Part shown: piece after piece, positions 54,439 to 63,313 of the stretch
Layout: each line of letters begins with the position of its first letter
Numbering within the stretch: position 1 is the first letter of the stretch
Origin: Butyricimonas faecihominis
GTDB lineage: Bacteria; Bacteroidota; Bacteroidia; Bacteroidales; Marinifilaceae
DNA length: 64,000 nucleotides
Assembly: GCF_033096445.1 (NCBI RefSeq)
Contig: NZ_AP028155.1
Coordinates: forward strand, 1,245,880-1,309,879
Direction: 5' to 3'
The notes under the pieces: model-generated
What the model was told of the DNA's origin: nothing
What the model saw: only the letters and a program-made list of their open reading frames with translations
The model's database searches: none
Program-made: the position numbers and the translations under genes

Positions 54439-54470
54439 TCCCAATCAATTCAATCTGCGAGGATTGTTTG

Positions 54471-54574
54471 AATTATAAAGAGGAGTCGAGAGAACGGGCT
54501 CATGGAAACTCCGACAACCTGCAAGACCACTTGCAAGGTGCCAAAACCCGACCTGAGAACCAGGAGTTATAATT
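54471..54574 (+). promoter_or_regulatory. S-box (SAM-I clan) riboswitch
   Basis: P1 is AATTATAA (54471-54478) with TTATAATT (54567-54574). Inside are the purine-rich AGAG element, a P2 helix (CGGG at 54495-54498 with CCCG), the GACAACCTGC...GCAAGGTGCCAA block that forms P3 and the SAM-binding core, and a small P4 (CCTG/CAGG). The order is that of S-box leaders, which bind S-adenosylmethionine and switch off methionine genes. The Bacteroidetes sequence differs in detail from Bacillus (for example GGCTC in place of GGCCC). Seven genes downstream fit a methionine and sulfur regulon. Confidence 0.82.
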
Positions 54575-54588
54575 TAAGCTGAAAGAAA

Positions 54589-54696
54589 ATGAAAACAGAA
54601 ACAACAAAACAAAACAGCATTTATTGCACTACAAATTGTAGCATTCTTTTCATTCATTCTATCGCCATGTCTATGCGTATGCGCTGCATGCGCTAA
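54589..54696 (+). CDS. Met-rich leader peptide (35 aa) after the SAM riboswitch
   Basis: Starts MKTETTKQNSIYCTTNCS and ends with AMSMRMRCMR before TAA, so four of the last nine residues are Met. Three Cys also occur. It lies 14 bases after the riboswitch. The Met codons (54667, 54673, 54679, 54688) fall in or next to the terminator stem. This suggests an attenuator that senses charged tRNA-Met. No homologue is known to me; coding status is inferred only from codon content and position. Confidence 0.5.
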   Translation: MKTETTKQNSIYCTTNCSILFIHSIAMSMRMRCMR

Positions 54697-54704
54697 TATT
54701 TTTT
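54675..54704 (+). terminator. Terminator hairpin overlapping the leader ORF
   Basis: GCGTATGC (54675-54682) pairs with GCATGCGC (54686-54693) across a 3-base loop, with one T-G wobble. The leader stop codon follows directly, then TTTTTT (54699-54704). The stem carries the Met/Arg codons of the leader ORF. It is the only strong terminator between the riboswitch and the operon. Confidence 0.75.
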
Positions 54705-54927
54705 ATACCCCGGACTTTTTATTTTAGATTTTTTTAATTTCAGATTTTTGATTGGGAAATTACACGGTAATTTTCAGGATTTTATGAATCGGTTTCAAGG
54801 ATAAACCGTGTGAAAACGTGTCATTGCATACCATCAAATCATCCATAGAAATCAATTAGTTGCAAGGCAGCTAACAGATAAAAAATCACCAACAAACAAT
54901 TTATCCATTAAAAAATTGTACAAGATC

Positions 54928-56091
54928 ATGGCTAAAACATACGCAGAAATAAACGATAAAATCAAAAAAGGTACGGCTGTCGTGTTGACGGCCGAAGAGG
55001 TATCAGAACTGGCAAAAACGCTCTCCCCGAAAGAGATTGCGGAGAAAGTGGATGTCGTGACCACGGCCACTTTCGGGGCAATGTGTTCCTCCGGGGCATT
55101 CCTAAACTTCGGACACGCTAATCCCCCGATTCGCATGGAAAAAATCGAGTTGAACGGCATTCGTGTCAGTGGTGGACTAGCCGCCGTGGACACTTACGTG
55201 GGTGCCACTGATTGCAACCCGGAAAATCCCAGTTACGGGGGTGCCCATATCATAGAAGACCTGATTGTAGGTAAAGAAATCACGCTGGAGGCCTGGGGAA
55301 AAGGTACGGATTGTTATCCCCGGAAACATATCAAAACGGTGATCACCAAAGATACGATTAACGAGGCCATCCTGTACAACCCCAGAAATGCCTACCAGAA
55401 TTATAACGTGGCTACTAACTCCACGGATAAAATTAAATACACGTACATGGGAACCTTGTTGCCAAAATTGCGAAATGCCTCTTACAGCACGGCCGGAGAA
55501 TTATCTCCCCTGTTGAACGATCCGGAATGTCGTACGATCGGTTTAGGAACTCGTATTTTCCTCTGCGGGACAGAAGGATACGTCACTTGGAACGGAACAC
55601 AATTCCACTCCACGAAAGAAACGAACGAACACGGAATACCCACCAGCAATGCCCGCACGATTGCCGTAATCGGTGACTTAAAAAACATGAGTACGGAATT
55701 TTTAAGAGGAGTTTATTACGAAAAATACGGGGTAAGCATGTTTGTCGGCATCGGCATCCCCATCCCGATTCTGGATGAAGACCTTGCCCGCAGAGTATCT
55801 ATCCGAAATGAACAAATAGAAACCACGGTTGTCGATTACGGAGACGGGAATAAGATTTTAGGTAAAACAAATTACGCCGCCCTACAAAGTGGAGAGATCG
55901 AGGTCAATGGCCATAAAATCAAAACGGCTCCTGTTGCCAGCTTGTCAAAAGCCCGGCAAATTGCCGAGATTTTAAAGTCATGGATTCAGAAAGGAGACTT
56001 CCTGCTCACGGAACCCGTTCGCCCCATGCCAACAGGCACTTCTCTAAAAGGACTCCAAGAAATTGAAAATGGAGAATTGAAAAAAGATTAA
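54928..56091 (+). CDS. DUF39/COG1900 homocysteine biosynthesis protein
   Basis: Protein of 387 aa from ATG 54928 (MAKTYAEINDKIKKGTAVVL). It has the DUF39 blocks TATFGAMCSSGAFLNFGHANPP and GGAHIIEDLIVG. Cys53 and Cys129 (TDCYPRKH) match the two Cys essential in Methanosarcina MA1821, which with a ferredoxin partner converts aspartate semialdehyde and sulfide to homocysteine. The CBS domains at the end of MA1821 are missing. The C-terminal residues (ENGELKKD) lie in an AT-rich repeat. First gene of the SAM-riboswitch operon. Confidence 0.88.
   Translation: MAKTYAEINDKIKKGTAVVLTAEEVSELAKTLSPKEIAEKVDVVTTATFGAMCSSGAFLNFGHANPPIRMEKIELNGIRVSGGLAAVDTYVGATDCNPENPSYGGAHIIEDLIVGKEITLEAWGKGTDCYPRKHIKTVITKDTINEAILYNPRNAYQNYNVATNSTDKIKYTYMGTLLPKLRNASYSTAGELSPLLNDPECRTIGLGTRIFLCGTEGYVTWNGTQFHSTKETNEHGIPTSNARTIAVIGDLKNMSTEFLRGVYYEKYGVSMFVGIGIPIPILDEDLARRVSIRNEQIETTVVDYGDGNKILGKTNYAALQSGEIEVNGHKIKTAPVASLSKARQIAEILKSWIQKGDFLLTEPVRPMPTGTSLKGLQEIENGELKKD
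56062..56088. repeat. AATTGAAAATGGAGAATTGAAA unit inside the 3' end of the DUF39 gene
   Basis: The last coding codons read ATTGAAAATGGAGAATTGAA, a unit that recurs at 56611-56645 after the next gene. Here it is translated. Confidence 0.6.
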
Positions 56092-56185: not shown

Positions 56186-56608
56186 ATGACTAAAAAAGTA
56201 ATATTAACCTTCCCGGTTGACGCAACAGATAGACCCTTGACATACGACTTAATTCGTATCTATGATGTAAAAGTAAATATCCTAAAGGCAGAGATACAAC
56301 CCGGAAAAACCGGATCACTCTTGATCGAAATGGATGCGGATCCCTTGAGAATAGAACAGGCTATCGCCTTCCTGAATGATAACGGGGTAACCGTAAGCCC
56401 TGTATCCAGCAAGATTTCTTACGACGAATCCCGCTGTATCAATTGCGGAAACTGTGCCTCGGCCTGTTTCTCCCACGCCTTGACGATCGAGGCTCCCGAC
56501 TGGAAACTACAATTCAATCCCGAAAAATGTATCGCCTGCAAACTATGTTTAAAAGCTTGCCCGTTGAAACTTTTCAAGATTGAATTCAGTAATCCGGAAA
56601 GCTGCTAG
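56186..56608 (+). CDS. NIL-domain 4Fe-4S ferredoxin, partner of DUF39
   Basis: Protein of 140 aa. The N-terminal 75 residues form an NIL domain, the substrate- or amino-acid-binding module of methionine-linked proteins (LTFPVDATDRPLTYDLIRIYD). Two clusters follow: CINCGNCASACFSHAL and CIACKLCLKACPLKLF. This is the architecture of MA1822, the reductive partner of MA1821. I infer that it supplies electrons or binds the sulfur carrier in homocysteine formation. It is 94 bases after the DUF39 gene. Confidence 0.88.
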   Translation: MTKKVILTFPVDATDRPLTYDLIRIYDVKVNILKAEIQPGKTGSLLIEMDADPLRIEQAIAFLNDNGVTVSPVSSKISYDESRCINCGNCASACFSHALTIEAPDWKLQFNPEKCIACKLCLKACPLKLFKIEFSNPESC

Positions 56609-56664: not shown

Positions 56665-57426
56665 ATGATCGAGTACAAAAATCGCACATATCGGGAGCAT
56701 TTGCAGAAAGAGCGCTGGTATTCTTTCACGGTTGCTTACAAAGAGACAGACCTGTGGATCGGAATAGATCAAGCATCTTTCCAAGAAAGCATACCTACAT
56801 TCACGGAATCCCGAATCCGAACATTACGGGAATACATGGATGCTTACCTGCAAAATGATCCGGATTACGCCACGTCACTCGTTTCCTACGAGGCACAACC
56901 GGGAGCCCCAACCATTTTTCAAGAGATGTCTGAGGTGGCCAGAAAATCCGGAATCGGTCCGATGAGTGCGGTTGCCGGGGCTGTTGCCAGCCGAATTGGT
57001 CAAGAGATCAAAGAAAAGTACGGGGTGCGGGAAATCATCGTGGAAAATGGCGGAGACATCTACGCGGACATACAAGAAAACATAGATATTGCCGTGTTTG
57101 CCGGGCCCTCTCCCCTGTCGGAAAAAGTGGGTTTCACCCTCTGGGCTGACCACGCCCCCCTAGGAATTTGTACTTCATCCGGAACCGTGGGTCCCTCTTT
57201 AAGTTTCGGGAAAGCGGATGCCGTCATGATTATTTGTAAAAATTGTGCTTTAGCCGACACGTATGCCACGGCTTTTGCCAACGAAATCAAAACAACAGAC
57301 GACATCGCCCCTTGCATCGAAAAGATCGGGAAGACGAAAGACATCCTTGCCGCCATCTGTATCAAGGATGACAAAATCGGAATTCACGGCATTTTTGATT
57401 TAAAACTCTTTCATTCTAAACTTTAA
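56665..57426 (+). CDS. UPF0280/COG2122 (ApbE-like) protein
   Basis: Protein of 253 aa. It opens YKNRTYREHLQKERWYSFTVAYKETDLWI and has the blocks GPMSAVAGAVASRIGQEI, VENGGDIYADI and CTSSGTVGPSLSFGKADA, all COG2122. The Methanosarcina homologue MA1715 makes sulfide assimilation into cysteine and homocysteine efficient at low sulfide. Although the fold is related to ApbE, flavin transfer is not shown for this group. Its place between the ferredoxin and metH strongly supports a role in homocysteine synthesis. The final codons (HSKL) and stop lie in a TTTAGATT-family repeat. Confidence 0.88.
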   Translation: MIEYKNRTYREHLQKERWYSFTVAYKETDLWIGIDQASFQESIPTFTESRIRTLREYMDAYLQNDPDYATSLVSYEAQPGAPTIFQEMSEVARKSGIGPMSAVAGAVASRIGQEIKEKYGVREIIVENGGDIYADIQENIDIAVFAGPSPLSEKVGFTLWADHAPLGICTSSGTVGPSLSFGKADAVMIICKNCALADTYATAFANEIKTTDDIAPCIEKIGKTKDILAAICIKDDKIGIHGIFDLKLFHSKL

Positions 57427-57442: not shown

Positions 57443-60400
57443 ATGAACCTACAAGATCGCATATACATACTGGATGGAGCCACCGGAACAGCTTTGCAGC
57501 AATTCCGGTTGACGGAAACCGATTTCCGAGGCAAGGAATTCGCACACCACCCGATCCCCCTAAAGGGAAACAACGATGTGCTGAATATTACCCGCCCGGA
57601 CGTGATTCGTCAGGTACATCAAAACTATATTGATGCGGGAGCCGATATTATCGAAACCAACACCTTCAATGCCAATGCTATTTCACAAACCGAATACGGT
57701 TGTACGGAATGGGTGGAACGCTTTAACTTGGAAGGCGCCCGTCTGGCAAAAGAAACCGCAGCCGCTTGTAAAGAACGGAAAGTTTACGTGGCAGGAAGTA
57801 TCGGACCAACCGATAAATCCCTGACCCTCACCCCTGATCCCGATCAACCGACTTACCGAATCGTGGATTTCGATACGCTGGCCAATGCATACGCCAGTCA
57901 GGTAACGGCATTAATAGAAGGCGGCGTAGATTTGTTGCTGGTTGAAACCATCTACGACGGGCTGAACGCAAAAGCCGCCCTTTACGCTATCGCAAAAGTA
58001 CAGGAAGAGAAAGGTACGCATCTTCCCGTGATGCTTTCCGCCACGGTAAACGACAAAAGCGGACGTACACTGACCGGACAATCACTGGAGGCCCTGTTCA
58101 CGAGTCTCTCCCACTACCCGATTCTCAGCTTTGGCCTGAACTGTTCATTCGGGGCGAAAGAGTTACACCATTTCCTACGGGAACTGGCTCCACGCATCCC
58201 GTGTTACATCAGTATATACCCGAACGCAGGACTACCGAATGAAATGGGAGAATACGACGAATCTCCGAAATTTACCGCTCTTTGTCTCCAGAACATGGCA
58301 AAAGAGGGATTGATCAATATTGCCGGAGGATGTTGCGGAACGACACCGGAACACATCCGGGCAATCGCAAACGCCTTGAAAGACATCCCCCCTAGAAAAG
58401 TCCCGACATCCAACCACCAACTAAAAGTGAGTGGTCTCGATACCGTCGTGGTGGATAAGGAATTAAACAATTTTATCAATATCGGCGAACGTACAAACGT
58501 GGCAGGCTCCGCTAAATTTGCCCGTCTTATCCGGGAAAAGAATTACACGGAGGCTGCCACGATCGCCCGGAAACAGATCGAGGCAGGAGCGTCTATCATC
58601 GACATCAACATGGATGATGCCATGTTGGACGGCACGGCCGAGATGGAACGTTTCGTGCGAATCATCAGCAACGAACCGGATATTGCCAAAGCGGCTTTCA
58701 TGATAGATTCTTCCAAGTGGGAAACCATCCTTGCCGGGTTAAAAAACACGCAAGGAAAATGTATTGTAAACTCGATCAGCTTGAAAGAAGGGGAAAAAGA
58801 CTTCCTTTACAAAGCCAAAGAAATTCAACGTCTGGGGGCAGCCGTGGTCGTGATGGCATTTGACGAAGAAGGCCAAGCCACGACATACCAACGTAAAATA
58901 GACATTTGCCAAAGAGCTTACGACTTGTTGACCACGCAAGCTGGATTTACTCCTGAAAACATTATCTTCGATGTGAACATACTAGCCATCGGAACCGGAA
59001 TCGAGGAACACAACAACTATGCCGTGGACTATATCGAAGCGGTACGCTGGATTAAACAAAACTTGAAAGGATGCCGCACATCCGGTGGTGTCTCCAACCT
59101 GTCATTCTCGTTCCGGGGAAACAACACGGTGCGGGAAGCCATGCACTCCGTTTTCTTGTACCATGCCATTCGTGCAGGGTTGGACATGGCGATCGTGAAT
59201 CCTGCCATATTACAGGTATATGACGAGATCGACCCGATATTGCTGAAAGCCGTGGAAGACGTCGTACTAAACCGTACACCTGAAGCAACGGAAACCCTAA
59301 TCTCTCTTGCCGAAAAATACAAGGAAACGAAAGGAGAAGTAAAAACAGTGCAACAGGAAGAATGGCGGAACCGTCCCCTGGAAGAACGTCTCGGACACGC
59401 TCTAATCAAGGGAATCACGGATTATCTGACGGAAGACCTTCAAGAGGCACTCGCGCATTATGCCAGCCCGGTCGAGATCATAGAAGAACCTTTAATGAAA
59501 GGAATGGAACGGGTCGGACAATTCTTCGGGGAAGGAAAAATGTTCTTGCCACAGGTCGTGAAATCAGCCAAGGTTATGAAAGAAGCCGTACACATCCTGC
59601 AACCGGAAATCGAACGTCACAACGCATCGGGCAAAAACGTAACCCGCCGCCCCCGTGTCGTGATTGCCACGGTGAAAGGAGACGTACACGACATCGGTAA
59701 AAATATCGTGAATATTGTTCTGACCTGTAATAATCTGGATGTAATCGACCTTGGTGTCATGGTTGACAATCAGAGTATTGTTAAGGCTGCCAAAGAACAC
59801 GAGGCAGATATTATCGGAGTCAGCGGTTTGATCACGCCCTCTCTGGGGGAAATGGAAAACCTGTGCGAACTGTTGCAAAAAGAACAATTACAAGTTCCCC
59901 TACTTGTTGGCGGGGCTACGACCTCAACCGTGCATACGGCCGTTAAACTGGCACCTAAATACGATTATTGCGTCGTGTCAGGCGGTGACGCATCCCGGAC
60001 CGTGGGAATCATCAAGCGTTTACTGAATGACCGGAAAAATTATATTCGTGAAATAAAAGTTGAACAAGAAAACATTCGAATTTTGTACAATCAACATCAA
60101 CAAAAACAAATATCACTCGAAGAGGCTCGCCGGAGAGCCCCTCGATACGATTGGGATCACGTGGAGCCCACAACTTTCGGAGAACACAATCTACTGGTAA
60201 AACGCTTGAATCTCGAAGATTTAGTGGAAAGAATCGACTGGACACCATTTTTCCATTTCTGGGGATTCAAAGGGATATACCCTGAAATCATTTACACGAA
60301 CGACGAGGCGGACCATACTTACCAGGCAGCACTGGATATGCTGGGTAAAGTGATCGCCGGAAATGAATTTGACGTTTCCATCATTGTCCGTTTCTTTGAT

Positions 60401-60865
60401 GCCTATTCGGAGTATGAAGACATCGTTCTGGATGGTCAATATCGATTCACGATGCCCCGGCAACAAGCGGACTTGGAAGAGTGTCTTTCACTGGCTGATT
60501 TTGTCATCCCGAAAGAAAAAGGAATCGGCAGCGTGGGACTATTCTGCTTGAAAGTACAGGATGATCACCAATGCAACGATTGCCGTAATTTTGAACATTT
60601 GTTACGAGGAAGTCTCTGTGCCCGGTTGGCAGAAGCCTGCGCGGAATGGATGCAGGAACAAGTCAATGAAGGAACTCACATCATCCGTCCCGCTTTCGGT
60701 TACCCGACTTGCCCGGATCATGCGATGAAGAAATTGGCCTTTGACATCTTGGATGCTCCTGCCCAGATCGGGGTACGCCTCACCGAGGGGTATTCCATCT
60801 ATCCCTCGACAAGCCTGTGTGGTATGCTGATTTCTCATCCTAAAGCAAAATATTTTAGCGTATAA
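57443..60865 (+). CDS. metH: Cobalamin-dependent methionine synthase
   Basis: Protein of 1140 aa with all four modules. Residues 1-320 are the homocysteine-zinc domain (Cys in LNCSFG and GGCCGTTPEH). About 340-620 binds methyl-THF (NIGERTNVAGSAKFARLI). About 640-880 binds cobalamin (DVHDIGKNIV, with the axial His). About 900-1140 is the SAM-dependent activation domain (WTPFFHFWGFKG). It is slightly shorter than the 1227 aa E. coli enzyme. It transfers methyl from MetF-made methyl-THF to homocysteine from the upstream module. It is 16 bases after the UPF0280 stop. Confidence 0.97.
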   Translation: MNLQDRIYILDGATGTALQQFRLTETDFRGKEFAHHPIPLKGNNDVLNITRPDVIRQVHQNYIDAGADIIETNTFNANAISQTEYGCTEWVERFNLEGARLAKETAAACKERKVYVAGSIGPTDKSLTLTPDPDQPTYRIVDFDTLANAYASQVTALIEGGVDLLLVETIYDGLNAKAALYAIAKVQEEKGTHLPVMLSATVNDKSGRTLTGQSLEALFTSLSHYPILSFGLNCSFGAKELHHFLRELAPRIPCYISIYPNAGLPNEMGEYDESPKFTALCLQNMAKEGLINIAGGCCGTTPEHIRAIANALKDIPPRKVPTSNHQLKVSGLDTVVVDKELNNFINIGERTNVAGSAKFARLIREKNYTEAATIARKQIEAGASIIDINMDDAMLDGTAEMERFVRIISNEPDIAKAAFMIDSSKWETILAGLKNTQGKCIVNSISLKEGEKDFLYKAKEIQRLGAAVVVMAFDEEGQATTYQRKIDICQRAYDLLTTQAGFTPENIIFDVNILAIGTGIEEHNNYAVDYIEAVRWIKQNLKGCRTSGGVSNLSFSFRGNNTVREAMHSVFLYHAIRAGLDMAIVNPAILQVYDEIDPILLKAVEDVVLNRTPEATETLISLAEKYKETKGEVKTVQQEEWRNRPLEERLGHALIKGITDYLTEDLQEALAHYASPVEIIEEPLMKGMERVGQFFGEGKMFLPQVVKSAKVMKEAVHILQPEIERHNASGKNVTRRPRVVIATVKGDVHDIGKNIVNIVLTCNNLDVIDLGVMVDNQSIVKAAKEHEADIIGVSGLITPSLGEMENLCELLQKEQLQVPLLVGGATTSTVHTAVKLAPKYDYCVVSGGDASRTVGIIKRLLNDRKNYIREIKVEQENIRILYNQHQQKQISLEEARRRAPRYDWDHVEPTTFGEHNLLVKRLNLEDLVERIDWTPFFHFWGFKGIYPEIIYTNDEADHTYQAALDMLGKVIAGNEFDVSIIVRFFDAYSEYEDIVLDGQYRFTMPRQQADLEECLSLADFVIPKEKGIGSVGLFCLKVQDDHQCNDCRNFEHLLRGSLCARLAEACAEWMQEQVNEGTHIIRPAFGYPTCPDHAMKKLAFDILDAPAQIGVRLTEGYSIYPSTSLCGMLISHPKAKYFSV

Positions 60866-61066: not shown

Positions 61067-62020
61067 ATGAAAGTCATCGACATACTCAACAATACAGACA
61101 AAGCGGTATTCTCTTTCGAGCTGGTACCGCCACTAAAAGGCGGAGACATCAATAAAATATACGAGGCCATCGAACCCTTGATTGCCCTTGCTCCCCCATT
61201 CATTAACATTACCTTTCACCGGGATGAAGTGGTATATCGTGAATACCCGGACGGAACGATCAAAAAAGTTACCGTGACAAAACGCCCCGGTTCCGTGGCA
61301 CTGGCCGCAGCCATCATGAGACGGTACAACGTGGACATGGTTCCTCATATCGTGTGCGGGGGAGCCACCCGCCATAAGATCGAAAACGAACTCATAGACT
61401 TGAATTTCCTTGACATTGAAAACGTGATGGCACTCCGGGGTGATCCCATACCGGGAGAACGTTTCTTTACTCCCGAAGAAGGCGGACACCAATATAGTTG
61501 TGAACTGGTAGAACAAATCACTCGCATGAACCACGGCCAATACTTGGATGACACGCTGACAGATGCCGTTCCCACGAACTTCTGCATCGGGGTTGCCGGA
61601 TACCCGGAAAAACATTACGAGGCACCCAACCAAGCCTGTGACATCGAGAACCTGAAAAAGAAAGTCGATGCGGGAGCGAATTATATCGTCACCCAGATGT
61701 TTTTCGATAACTCCAAATTTTTCCAGTTTGTCGATAAATGCCGGGCGCAAGGAATTACCGTACCTATCGTACCGGGATTAAAACCCATATCAACATTCAA
61801 ACATCTGGAAATGCTCCCACGTACATTCAGTATAGACATCCCACACGAACTGGTTAAAGAGATTCGTTCATGCAAAAATAACAAGGAGATCAACCAAGTC
61901 GGTATAGAATGGTGCGTGGCACAGAGTAAAGAACTCATCGCACACGGGGTTCCCGCCGTTCATTACTACACGATGGGGAAATCGGAAAATATTCAGGAAA
62001 TTGTAAAACAAGTTTTCTAA
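61067..62020 (+). CDS. metF: 5,10-methylenetetrahydrofolate reductase
   Basis: Protein of 317 aa, TIM barrel. FVFSFELVPPLKGG-like start (AVFSFELVPPLK), the FAD- and folate-site blocks VMALRGDPI and AGYPEKHYEA, and the C-terminal GVPAVHYYTMG are all family marks. It reduces methylene-THF to methyl-THF, the methyl donor of MetH. Separated from metH by the 131-bp repeat element. Confidence 0.96.
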   Translation: MKVIDILNNTDKAVFSFELVPPLKGGDINKIYEAIEPLIALAPPFINITFHRDEVVYREYPDGTIKKVTVTKRPGSVALAAAIMRRYNVDMVPHIVCGGATRHKIENELIDLNFLDIENVMALRGDPIPGERFFTPEEGGHQYSCELVEQITRMNHGQYLDDTLTDAVPTNFCIGVAGYPEKHYEAPNQACDIENLKKKVDAGANYIVTQMFFDNSKFFQFVDKCRAQGITVPIVPGLKPISTFKHLEMLPRTFSIDIPHELVKEIRSCKNNKEINQVGIEWCVAQSKELIAHGVPAVHYYTMGKSENIQEIVKQVF

Positions 62021-62023
62021 GCT

Positions 62024-63313
62024 ATGCAACAAGAAACTAAACCAAACTTTTGGGCACTAACTCCCTTGATCATATTTTTAAGTATCTACCTGATCGCCTC
62101 TATCATCATGGGAGATTTTTACAAAATGCCGATCACCGTGGCATTTCTCGTCTCTTCCGTTGTGGCCGTGGCCATCTCTTCCGGGGGAAAACTCCACAAA
62201 CGGATAGACCTATTCTGTAAAGGAGCCGCCAACAGCAATATCATGCTCATGGTGTGGATTTTTATCCTTGCCGGGGCATTTGCCCAAACGGCAAAAGCCG
62301 TGGGGGCGGTAGATGCGACTGTTAATCTCGCTTTATCCGTACTTCCGGACAGTCTCTTACTCGCAGGGATGTTTATTGCCGCCTGTTTCATTTCACTTTC
62401 CATGGGAACTTCTGTCGGTACGATCGTGGCACTTACCCCCGTCGCCGTCGGTATTGCCGCACAAACAGGCATAAACACGCCTTTCATGGTAGCCATCGTG
62501 GTCGGAGGAGCCATGTTCGGGGATAACCTATCCTTTATCTCCGACACGACCATTGTTGCCACCCGCACGCAAGGCTGTAACATGAAAGATAAATTTAAAG
62601 TCAATAGCTTAATTGTCATCCCGGTTGCTATACTCGTAACTATCGTTTACCTGTTCCAAGGCAGCGAAATAACAACAACACCCAGCGCCACCCCGATCGA
62701 GTGGTTAAAAGTAATTCCTTACATTTTGGTACTAATCACCGCCTTGGCTGGCGTGAATGTCATGATCGTACTTCTACTCGGTATTCTCTGTTCCGGTATA
62801 GTCGGGATAATTACCGGAAGCATTCAATTCTGGGAATGGTTTGCCGCCATGGGTTCGGGGATCTCCGATATGGGAGAACTGATCATTATCACGTTGCTGG
62901 CAGGCGGAATGCTCGAAATGATTCGCTACAACGGGGGAATTGCCTACATCATTCAGAAATTGACAACTCATGTCAAATCAAAAAAAGGAGCCGAATTAAG
63001 TATTGCCGCCCTAGTCAGTTTCGCCGATTTATGCACGGCAAACAACACGATAGCCCTCATCATGTCCGGCCCCATAGCTAAAGACATTGCCAATCGTTTT
63101 GGTGTCGATCCCCGGAAATCAGCCAGCCTGCTAGACACATTCTCGTGTTTCGTGCAAGGTATCATTCCCTACGGAGCGCAATTACTCATGGCCGCCGGTC
63201 TAGCCTCCATTACCCCGCTAGCCATCATGCAGTACCTCTACTACCCGTACTTAATGGGTGTTGCAGCCCTTTTGGCTATATTCTTTCGCTATCCTCGGAA
63301 ATACTCACGGTAA
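62024..63313 (+). CDS. NhaC-family Na+/H+ antiporter or methionine transporter
   Basis: Protein of 429 aa with about eleven helices. The N-terminal pattern and GTSVGTIVALTPVAVG, GGAMFGDNLSFISDTTIVATRTQGC are NhaC marks. It starts 3 bases after the metF stop, inside a SAM-riboswitch operon. NhaC-superfamily members controlled by S-boxes have been proposed as methionine transporters (MetT). That reading fits the context, but sequence alone cannot separate it from a Na+/H+ antiporter. Confidence 0.85.
   Translation: MQQETKPNFWALTPLIIFLSIYLIASIIMGDFYKMPITVAFLVSSVVAVAISSGGKLHKRIDLFCKGAANSNIMLMVWIFILAGAFAQTAKAVGAVDATVNLALSVLPDSLLLAGMFIAACFISLSMGTSVGTIVALTPVAVGIAAQTGINTPFMVAIVVGGAMFGDNLSFISDTTIVATRTQGCNMKDKFKVNSLIVIPVAILVTIVYLFQGSEITTTPSATPIEWLKVIPYILVLITALAGVNVMIVLLLGILCSGIVGIITGSIQFWEWFAAMGSGISDMGELIIITLLAGGMLEMIRYNGGIAYIIQKLTTHVKSKKGAELSIAALVSFADLCTANNTIALIMSGPIAKDIANRFGVDPRKSASLLDTFSCFVQGIIPYGAQLLMAAGLASITPLAIMQYLYYPYLMGVAALLAIFFRYPRKYSR

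Follow-up and report, generated by a model that had tools for sequence, protein, structure and literature searches.

Introduction

In the pyrBI attenuator of Escherichia coli the leader open reading frame (ORF) runs through the terminator stem, as the ORF of the leader described here runs through a proposed one, and none of the pyrBI, trp, his and ilvB attenuators is known to have a riboswitch in front. All of these systems resemble our locus in placing regulatory codons in a short ORF with a terminator within reach of the ribosome (for the upstream ORF of Corynebacterium ilvB, see the accessible part of PMC11109978). Actinobacterial Cys leader peptides share with it a run of codons for a sulfur amino acid close to the stop codon, but these are Cys codons; the available text of PMC1262725 describes the Mycobacterium examples as lacking conserved terminator hairpins and mentions no SAM riboswitch in front. 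In Mycobacterium tuberculosis, translation of short leader ORFs at the metE and ppe2 riboswitches alters the downstream gene, in ppe2 mainly by termination-reinitiation, but the ligand is B12 rather than SAM and no amino-acid-specific codon tail is described in the accessible portion of PMC11260477. The metA leader of Sinorhizobium likewise has a SAM switch acting on translation and a terminator inside the leader, between two AUG codons, but the switch is of the SAM-II class and the accessible sections of PMC9373788 report no Met-codon ORF. Finally, in the met operon of Xanthomonas campestris the SAM-I switch responds to uncharged initiator tRNA as well, and thus one SAM-I leader integrates SAM and the Met-tRNA state for methionine synthesis; the main text of PMC7270179, in its accessible parts, mentions neither a leader peptide nor an ORF or Met codon. 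SAM-I riboswitches are already known in Bacteroidetes (excerpts of PMC2258182), leader-peptide attenuation has been suggested for Flavobacterium (PMC9723704), as have short ORFs in long 5' UTRs for Bacteroides thetaiotaomicron (PMC7366714), with no SAM riboswitch mentioned in the available parts of the latter two papers.

Here we analyse a leader of Butyricimonas faecihominis within a window of 64,000 nucleotides (contig NZ_AP028155.1, positions 1,245,880 to 1,309,879) in which a SAM-I riboswitch is followed by a short ORF with Met codons at its end. We propose, with a probability of about 0.55 and from comparison of sequences, that the riboswitch gates translation of this leader ORF and that the ORF is an attenuator reading Met-tRNA. 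In logic the Xanthomonas SAM-I/tRNA-fMet switch is the nearest described system, and in anatomy the riboswitch upstream ORFs of M. tuberculosis are, as far as the accessible parts of these papers go. The difference from Xanthomonas is that there the expression platform itself is bound by tRNA-fMet, which releases a Shine-Dalgarno sequence (PMC7270179, in part), whereas in our leader a translating ribosome would read the tRNA state. Our literature search, which covered a collection of open-access papers, found no description of a SAM-I riboswitch combined with a Met-codon leader ORF. The claim of the original prediction that no such case had been described is in line with this search as far as the layout goes, but needs a caveat for the sensing of both signals, since the Xanthomonas switch, according to the excerpts of PMC7270179, already senses SAM and tRNA-fMet.

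Leader and operon in the window

The features of the locus are as follows, numbered from the first position of the window.

54470..54575, + strand: SAM-I (S-box) riboswitch aptamer (RF00162, 63.9 bits against a gathering score of 44.4 bits, E 1.6e-12, model positions 1-108 of 108)
54576..54588, + strand: A-rich spacer of 13 nt from the aptamer to the leader start codon, seen in the sequence; proposed site where closed P1 would block 30S binding
54589..54696, + strand: leader ORF of 35 codons, its open frame and Met tail conserved in relatives
54675..54693, + strand: tail hairpin GCGTATGC-GCT-GCATGCGC, 8 pairs and a 3-nt loop; proposed terminator stem
54699..54704, + strand: T6 tract past the leader stop, seen in the sequence; proposed termination point
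54928..56091, + strand: HcyBio homocysteine biosynthesis enzyme, first gene behind the leader (Pfam PF01837, 498 bits)
56186..56608, + strand: NIL-domain ferredoxin (Pfam PF09383 and Fer4)
56665..57426, + strand: 253-aa protein without a Pfam match
57443..60865, + strand: MetH, B12-dependent methionine synthase (Pfam S-methyl_trans, Pterin_bind, B12-binding, Met_synt_B12)
61067..62020, + strand: MetF-like methylenetetrahydrofolate reductase, named by eye from its translation
62024-63313: NhaC-like transporter gene behind metF, named by eye

The Rfam search proposed with the original prediction recovered its S-box aptamer over the whole model. No Rfam model but RF00162, and hence no T-box model, reached its gathering score in the window, and the aptamer was the sole SAM-I match genome-wide (4.85 Mb). 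Its closing helix P1 is AU-rich and pairs 54470-54477 with 54568-54575 in the Rfam alignment. The other parts that had been described are present as well. The 35-codon ORF, translated as MKTETTKQNSIYCTTNCSILFIHSIAMSMRMRCMR, begins 13 nt downstream of the aptamer and has four Met codons among its last nine (codons 27, 29, 31 and 34, starting at 54667, 54673, 54679 and 54688). The 8-bp hairpin is built from the last seven codons, is bounded directly on its 3' side by the stop codon TAA (54694-54696) and is separated from the T6 tract by five bases, a gap that counts against the proposed mechanism; its pair probability is 0.98-0.99 in the predicted ensemble of the window leader. In the window the hairpin and T tract thus belong to the tail of the leader ORF as a putative terminator, a layout that is not general in other families.

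On its own the tail hairpin is unremarkable. Its fold z-score of -0.59 is not beyond chance, and folding energy alone was dropped as proof of the hairpin; one terminator-like site was found against 0.3 expected. The decision was therefore left to the comparison with relatives. A promoter scan gave one weak site on the opposite strand, and no second genomic copy of the tail pattern was found at up to three mismatches.

The S-box precedes sulfur amino acid genes (HcyBio, NIL-ferredoxin, MetH). The HcyBio protein of the window is 98% identical to its nearest named relative, as befits a Butyricimonas-type genome, and the genus belongs to Odoribacteraceae within Bacteroidales. The NIL-domain ferredoxin (56186..56608) is a known partner of HcyBio, and the 253-aa protein (56665..57426) resembles UPF0280/ApbE-like proteins. 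A NhaC-like gene, again recognized by eye, also stands behind a SAM-I riboswitch with a Met-tail ORF in two other genomes (L007 and L010), and the transporter-like gene at these loci and in the window may encode a methionine transporter. Between leader ORF and HcyBio the window has a second hairpin (54856-54874) with a C-AAG-G triloop and at least five pairs. Such a hairpin lies 50-57 nt upstream of the HcyBio start in 8 of 22 HcyBio leaders (L001, L005, L029, L119, L121, L122, L124 and L125), with stems that vary on both sides.

The Met-codon tail across Bacteroidales

SAM-I riboswitches were present in 42 of 56 genomes of the window's family, in 115 of 393 genomes sampled from the order, in 298 of 396 from the class and in 248 of 296 from the phylum. 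From the family and order searches 174 loci were read and two were dropped (L127, at 28 bits below the cut-off and without an S-box core, and L165, whose contig ends 41 nt past the aptamer), leaving 172; a below-cut-off match in genome G311 was left out of the locus set. A leader ORF was defined as a frame of 12-100 codons with its ATG within 30 nt of the aptamer, and the Met tail as the number of Met codons among its last 12. By this rule, 123 of the 172 loci have a near leader ORF and 49 do not. At least two tail Met codons occur in 95 of the 123 ORFs and at least three in 64, with fewer than two in the remaining 28.

Across the 123 ORFs, ATG makes up 356 of 1475 tail codons in frame versus 7/1352 and 8/1352 in the other two frames, and only 25 of 2505 codons in the rest of the ORFs. 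The loci are related by descent; with one random locus taken for each of the 31 family codes that have such an ORF, the window's family excluded, the counts were 53/372 in frame versus 2/341 and 3/341. For the 123 ORFs, dinucleotide shuffles gave an expectation of ~0.1 ORFs with at least three tail Met codons against the 64 observed, and of 38 frames of at least 20 codons against 114 observed. Outside the window's family, at least two tail Met codons were found at 53 of 126 loci and at least three at 22, and among the 45 sampled family codes with SAM-I, 24 have a locus with at least two and 10 a locus with at least three. Relatives that keep the riboswitch without the Met-tail ORF, which the original prediction had counted against itself, occur at four of the 46 loci of the window's family (L011, L013, L114 and L126); the other 42 keep at least three tail Met codons.

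Beyond the order the pattern fades. The set examined there, 117 loci from the class and phylum, was not random but comprised the 57 best-scoring loci and 60 picked across family codes among the best matches listed. Within this set a leader ORF was found at 31 loci and at least two tail Met codons at one (L343, with a Cys/Met tail), and tail ATG codons numbered 8/372 in frame versus 9/341 and 0/341. Cys- or Met-rich short frames were seen in the SAM-I leaders of L261, L272, L315, L322 and L343, three of them beginning 98-147 nt from the aptamer.

Across families the tails share little beyond their Met codons (MSMRMRCMR, MMRMQRMMRMI, MPLMPMCMR, MFMRCMRSMLS). Between the window and the Sanguibacteroides locus L019, 35 of 78 positions differ in the ORF body and 0 of 30 in the Met tail and stop codon; bodies that diverge while the tail is kept are the pattern expected from selection on codons and RNA rather than on the whole peptide. 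At two loci of one genome (G205), runs of Cys codons take the place of Met (L164, SLCCCCCCC; L197, SFCCCFCCC). As a side observation, L114 and L126 have SAM-I without a near ORF and, farther downstream, Cys-rich short frames (MMCCICCMCCCM) that precede a sulfite-reductase-like gene, recognized by eye.

When the genes behind the aptamers were classified by short sequence motifs rather than family searches, with 16 of 172 loci left unclassified and L019 tallied under 'other' though its gene is HcyBio, loci with at least two tail Met codons numbered 47/58 for MetY, 15/18 for aspartokinase, 18/21 for HcyBio, 7/45 for MetH, 0/10 for MetB-type, 0/4 for MetX and 8/16 for unclassified genes. In a separate set of 80 HcyBio loci, in which one locus with only 207 nt upstream (L093) was scored negative, at least three tail Met codons occurred at 17 of 36 loci with SAM-I versus 2 of 44 without (Fisher p 9e-6, a descriptive value given the common descent of the loci); the other 19 of the 36 loci with SAM-I have no ORF with three tail Met codons. 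The two exceptions, L039 and L078, have a Met-tail ORF and no SAM-I ahead of it even at E up to 1, and hence a Met-tail ORF can stand alone.

Taken together, the leader has what characterizes leader peptides, a short ORF with codons for the amino acid of the pathway near its end, conserved in frame. The sequence comparison supports the view that the Met-tail ORF is under selection, statistically tied to the S-box and widespread.

The riboswitch and the leader start codon

The position of the start codon links the two elements. From aptamer to leader ATG the median offset is 13, and 92 of the 95 ORFs with two or more tail Met codons fall between +8 and +17. At seven loci (L166, L155, L143, L185, L205, L138 and L206, from family codes f31, f51, f60 twice, f63 and f98 twice) the ATG of metH itself lies at +12 to +16. 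These seven S-boxes are apparently of a direct translational type, leaving no space for a further platform ahead of the gene. The simplest reading of these sequences is that the S-box blocks initiation at whichever start codon is there, that of a gene or that of a leader. Because the leader ATG occupies the same place as the directly following metH ATGs, the two sensors are probably nested rather than separate. Around the leader ATG the sequence is rich in A (53% over the 13 nt before it and 45% over codons 2-8), which is typical of starts without a Shine-Dalgarno sequence in this phylum, and Bacteroidales are described as seldom relying on such sequences.

The same spacing bears on whether the two sensors could be independent and act in series, the ORF being translated whatever the SAM level and the S-box acting through some unseen effect, for example on RNA stability or on polymerase pausing. 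Such independence would fit the Met-tail ORFs of L039 and L078, where no SAM-I is detectable, and the S-boxes that stand without a near ORF before 30 of 45 metH and 9 of 10 metB-type loci. We nevertheless regard it as unlikely, since the tight distance from aptamer to ATG fits an S-box acting on that ATG and matches the seven directly following metH starts.

The tail hairpin in relatives and the form of the output

The 8-bp stem of the window is kept at six of seven loci from the genus and Sanguibacteroides (L019) and is absent in L029, and Odoribacter-type relatives have a 4-bp core with a 5-nt loop. A GCGC-5nt-GCGC core is found at all 17 loci whose ORF ends in MRCMR. At these 17 loci the Arg codons of the hairpin are CGC in 34 of 34 cases, versus 0 of 26 for the other Arg codons of the same ORFs, and CGC makes up 13% of Arg codons in the long ORFs of the window. 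The 15 nt after the stop codon contain on average 8.2 T at the 17 loci versus 5.2 at the other 78 loci that have two or more tail Met codons. Among the 17 MRCMR-type leaders, 14 are predicted to form the tail hairpin with a pair probability of at least 0.8, and the prediction is weaker in L125 (0.48), L005 (0.56) and L002 (0.09). Three further loci (L046, L078 and L211) have lost the MRCMR ending and kept the Met codons, and by eye their GC-rich arms are still able to pair before a T-rich stretch. At the sequence level, an RNA hairpin thus seems to be kept in the window's lineage across the 17 loci.

Outside this lineage the picture differs. We scanned for T-tract hairpins of -5 kcal/mol or better at 66 loci with at least two tail Met codons, namely the 53 outside the window's family and 13 of the 42 inside; the counts were made without a shuffle control. 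Such a hairpin was found anywhere between aptamer and gene at 33 of the 66 loci, and overlapping the tail at 8 of the 13 family loci and 9 of the 53 others. An intrinsic terminator common to all Met-tail leaders was ruled out by this last count, and the 8-bp terminator stem, which the original prediction had made part of the layout, is not a general part but a lineage-specific one.

These counts also speak to nested sensors with another output, in which the leader ribosome would act on the access of Rho, on mRNA decay or on how the first gene is translated, rather than through intrinsic termination. Such an output would suit the 44 of 53 Met-tail loci outside the family in which no T-tract hairpin overlaps the tail, and Rho has been suggested for the actinobacterial Cys leader peptides (accessible text of PMC1262725). 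We consider such an output quite unlikely, given that at the 17 MRCMR loci the arms are kept at synonymous sites and are followed by a T-rich tract.

Alternative pairings of the leader

In the predicted ensemble of the window leader, no rival partner of the tail-hairpin arms exceeds 0.1, and the 3' strand of P1 does not pair downstream of 54579. With the arms and the P1 3' strand lacking alternative partners, a classical S-box antiterminator is not visible, and the usual, though not required, S-box platform that shares the P1 3' strand was not found in the window. The trp, his and ilvB attenuators use an antiterminator, whereas no antiterminator hairpin of the trp/his type was predicted for the stem arms of the window. 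An overlapping attenuator of the pyrBI type needs no antiterminator. P1 without ligand is hardly predicted (its best pair stays at or below 0.24 in 16 of the 17 leaders and reaches 0.99 in L002), and this weak modelled P1 speaks neither for nor against a P1 made by the ligand. As a separate observation, in the MetY leaders of the window's family (L012 and others) the Met tail can pair within itself and with CGCATTC just past the stop codon, which can also pair downstream; by eye, this resembles an exclusive 1:2, 2:3, 3:4 layout.

One pairing in the model could serve an S-box platform that needs no ribosome, in which at low SAM the free 5' strand of P1 would pair with the T tract and spare the transcript, the Met ORF being a separate layer. 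The minimum-energy fold of the window leader does join the P1 5' strand to the T tract (54474-54481 with 54700-54707), with a probability of ~0.3 when the leader is taken to 54760. With the leader ending 40 nt past the stop, the expected pairs fall to ~0.01 in the window, and among leaders of this length L117 and L003 reach 6.6 and 7.7 whereas 11 of the 17 have at most 0.25. Moreover, a terminator's U tract has not yet left the polymerase at the point of decision, so that such late pairing could hardly prevent termination, and we judge a platform of this kind highly improbable.

It is scarcely credible that the tail hairpin is an ordinary S-box terminator with an incidental ORF. A hairpin and T tract 3' of an S-box are indeed the usual layout, but the arms lack an antiterminator partner above 0.1, and the in-frame Met enrichment and the open frame are far beyond chance. 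A functional small peptide with the tail as its conserved motif, which the MRCMR ending common to 17 loci might suggest, was set aside on sequence divergence with a likelihood close to nil, as the ORF bodies diverge, Met codons recur in other families within different surroundings (MPLMPMCMR, MMRMQRMMRM, MFMRCMRSM) or give way to Cys runs, and L046, L078 and L211 lack MRCMR yet keep Met codons and, by eye, possible GC-rich arms.

A proposed nested sensor of SAM and Met-tRNA

The comparison with relatives demonstrates, as features of sequence, the aptamer, the ORF, its tail codons, their association and the constraint on the hairpin. From their geometry we infer how the preferred reading, a riboswitch gating a codon-reading leader ORF, could work. 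First, SAM would close P1 and thereby block ribosome loading at the leader AUG, which follows the P1 3' strand after 13 nt. Second, with the leader untranslated, the last-codon hairpin would form behind RNA polymerase and, together with the T6 tract (both present in the sequence), would end transcription ahead of the homocysteine/methionine operon. Third, at low SAM P1 would stay open, and a ribosome trailing the polymerase through the ORF would mask the hairpin. Fourth, when charged Met-tRNA is scarce, the ribosome would wait at Met codon 27, 29, 31 or 34, and this stalling would raise read-through. Since a ribosome footprint reaches approximately 15 nt beyond the P site on the 3' side, ~5 of the 8 bases of the hairpin 5' arm would be covered from Met codon 27 and the whole arm from codon 29, while a ribosome at codon 31 or 34 would cover most of both arms. 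Low SAM would act as the licence and low Met-tRNA as the amplifier, and at high SAM the leader would carry no ribosome at all.

For Bacteroidales outside the window's lineage we propose the first and fourth steps, with a final step that may be intrinsic, Rho-dependent or translational. That the riboswitch licenses a codon-reading leader ORF across Bacteroidales, with the ribosome reporting the charging of Met-tRNA, or of Cys-tRNA at some loci, as a nested AND gate, is a generalization to which we give even odds. The reading of the locus as a possible double attenuator, as first proposed, survives in part and in altered form: the Met-tail ORF appears to be selected and tied to the S-box, and no competing pairing of the hairpin arms is seen in the predicted ensemble, but the sensors are probably nested and the 8-bp stem is specific to the lineage.

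Implications

The finding is real and larger than first noted, and it combines two known kinds of element, a SAM-I riboswitch and a leader attenuator. The Cys-codon variants provide a built-in test of specificity for the nested model. If the model is true, a riboswitch and a ribosome-dependent attenuator would be joined in one hierarchical sensor of SAM, the product, and of Met-tRNA, the precursor supply. This would be a general regulatory design in which the riboswitch directly controls neither the gene nor the terminator, and it would suggest how S-boxes can act in bacteria that may lack a Shine-Dalgarno sequence for them to mask.
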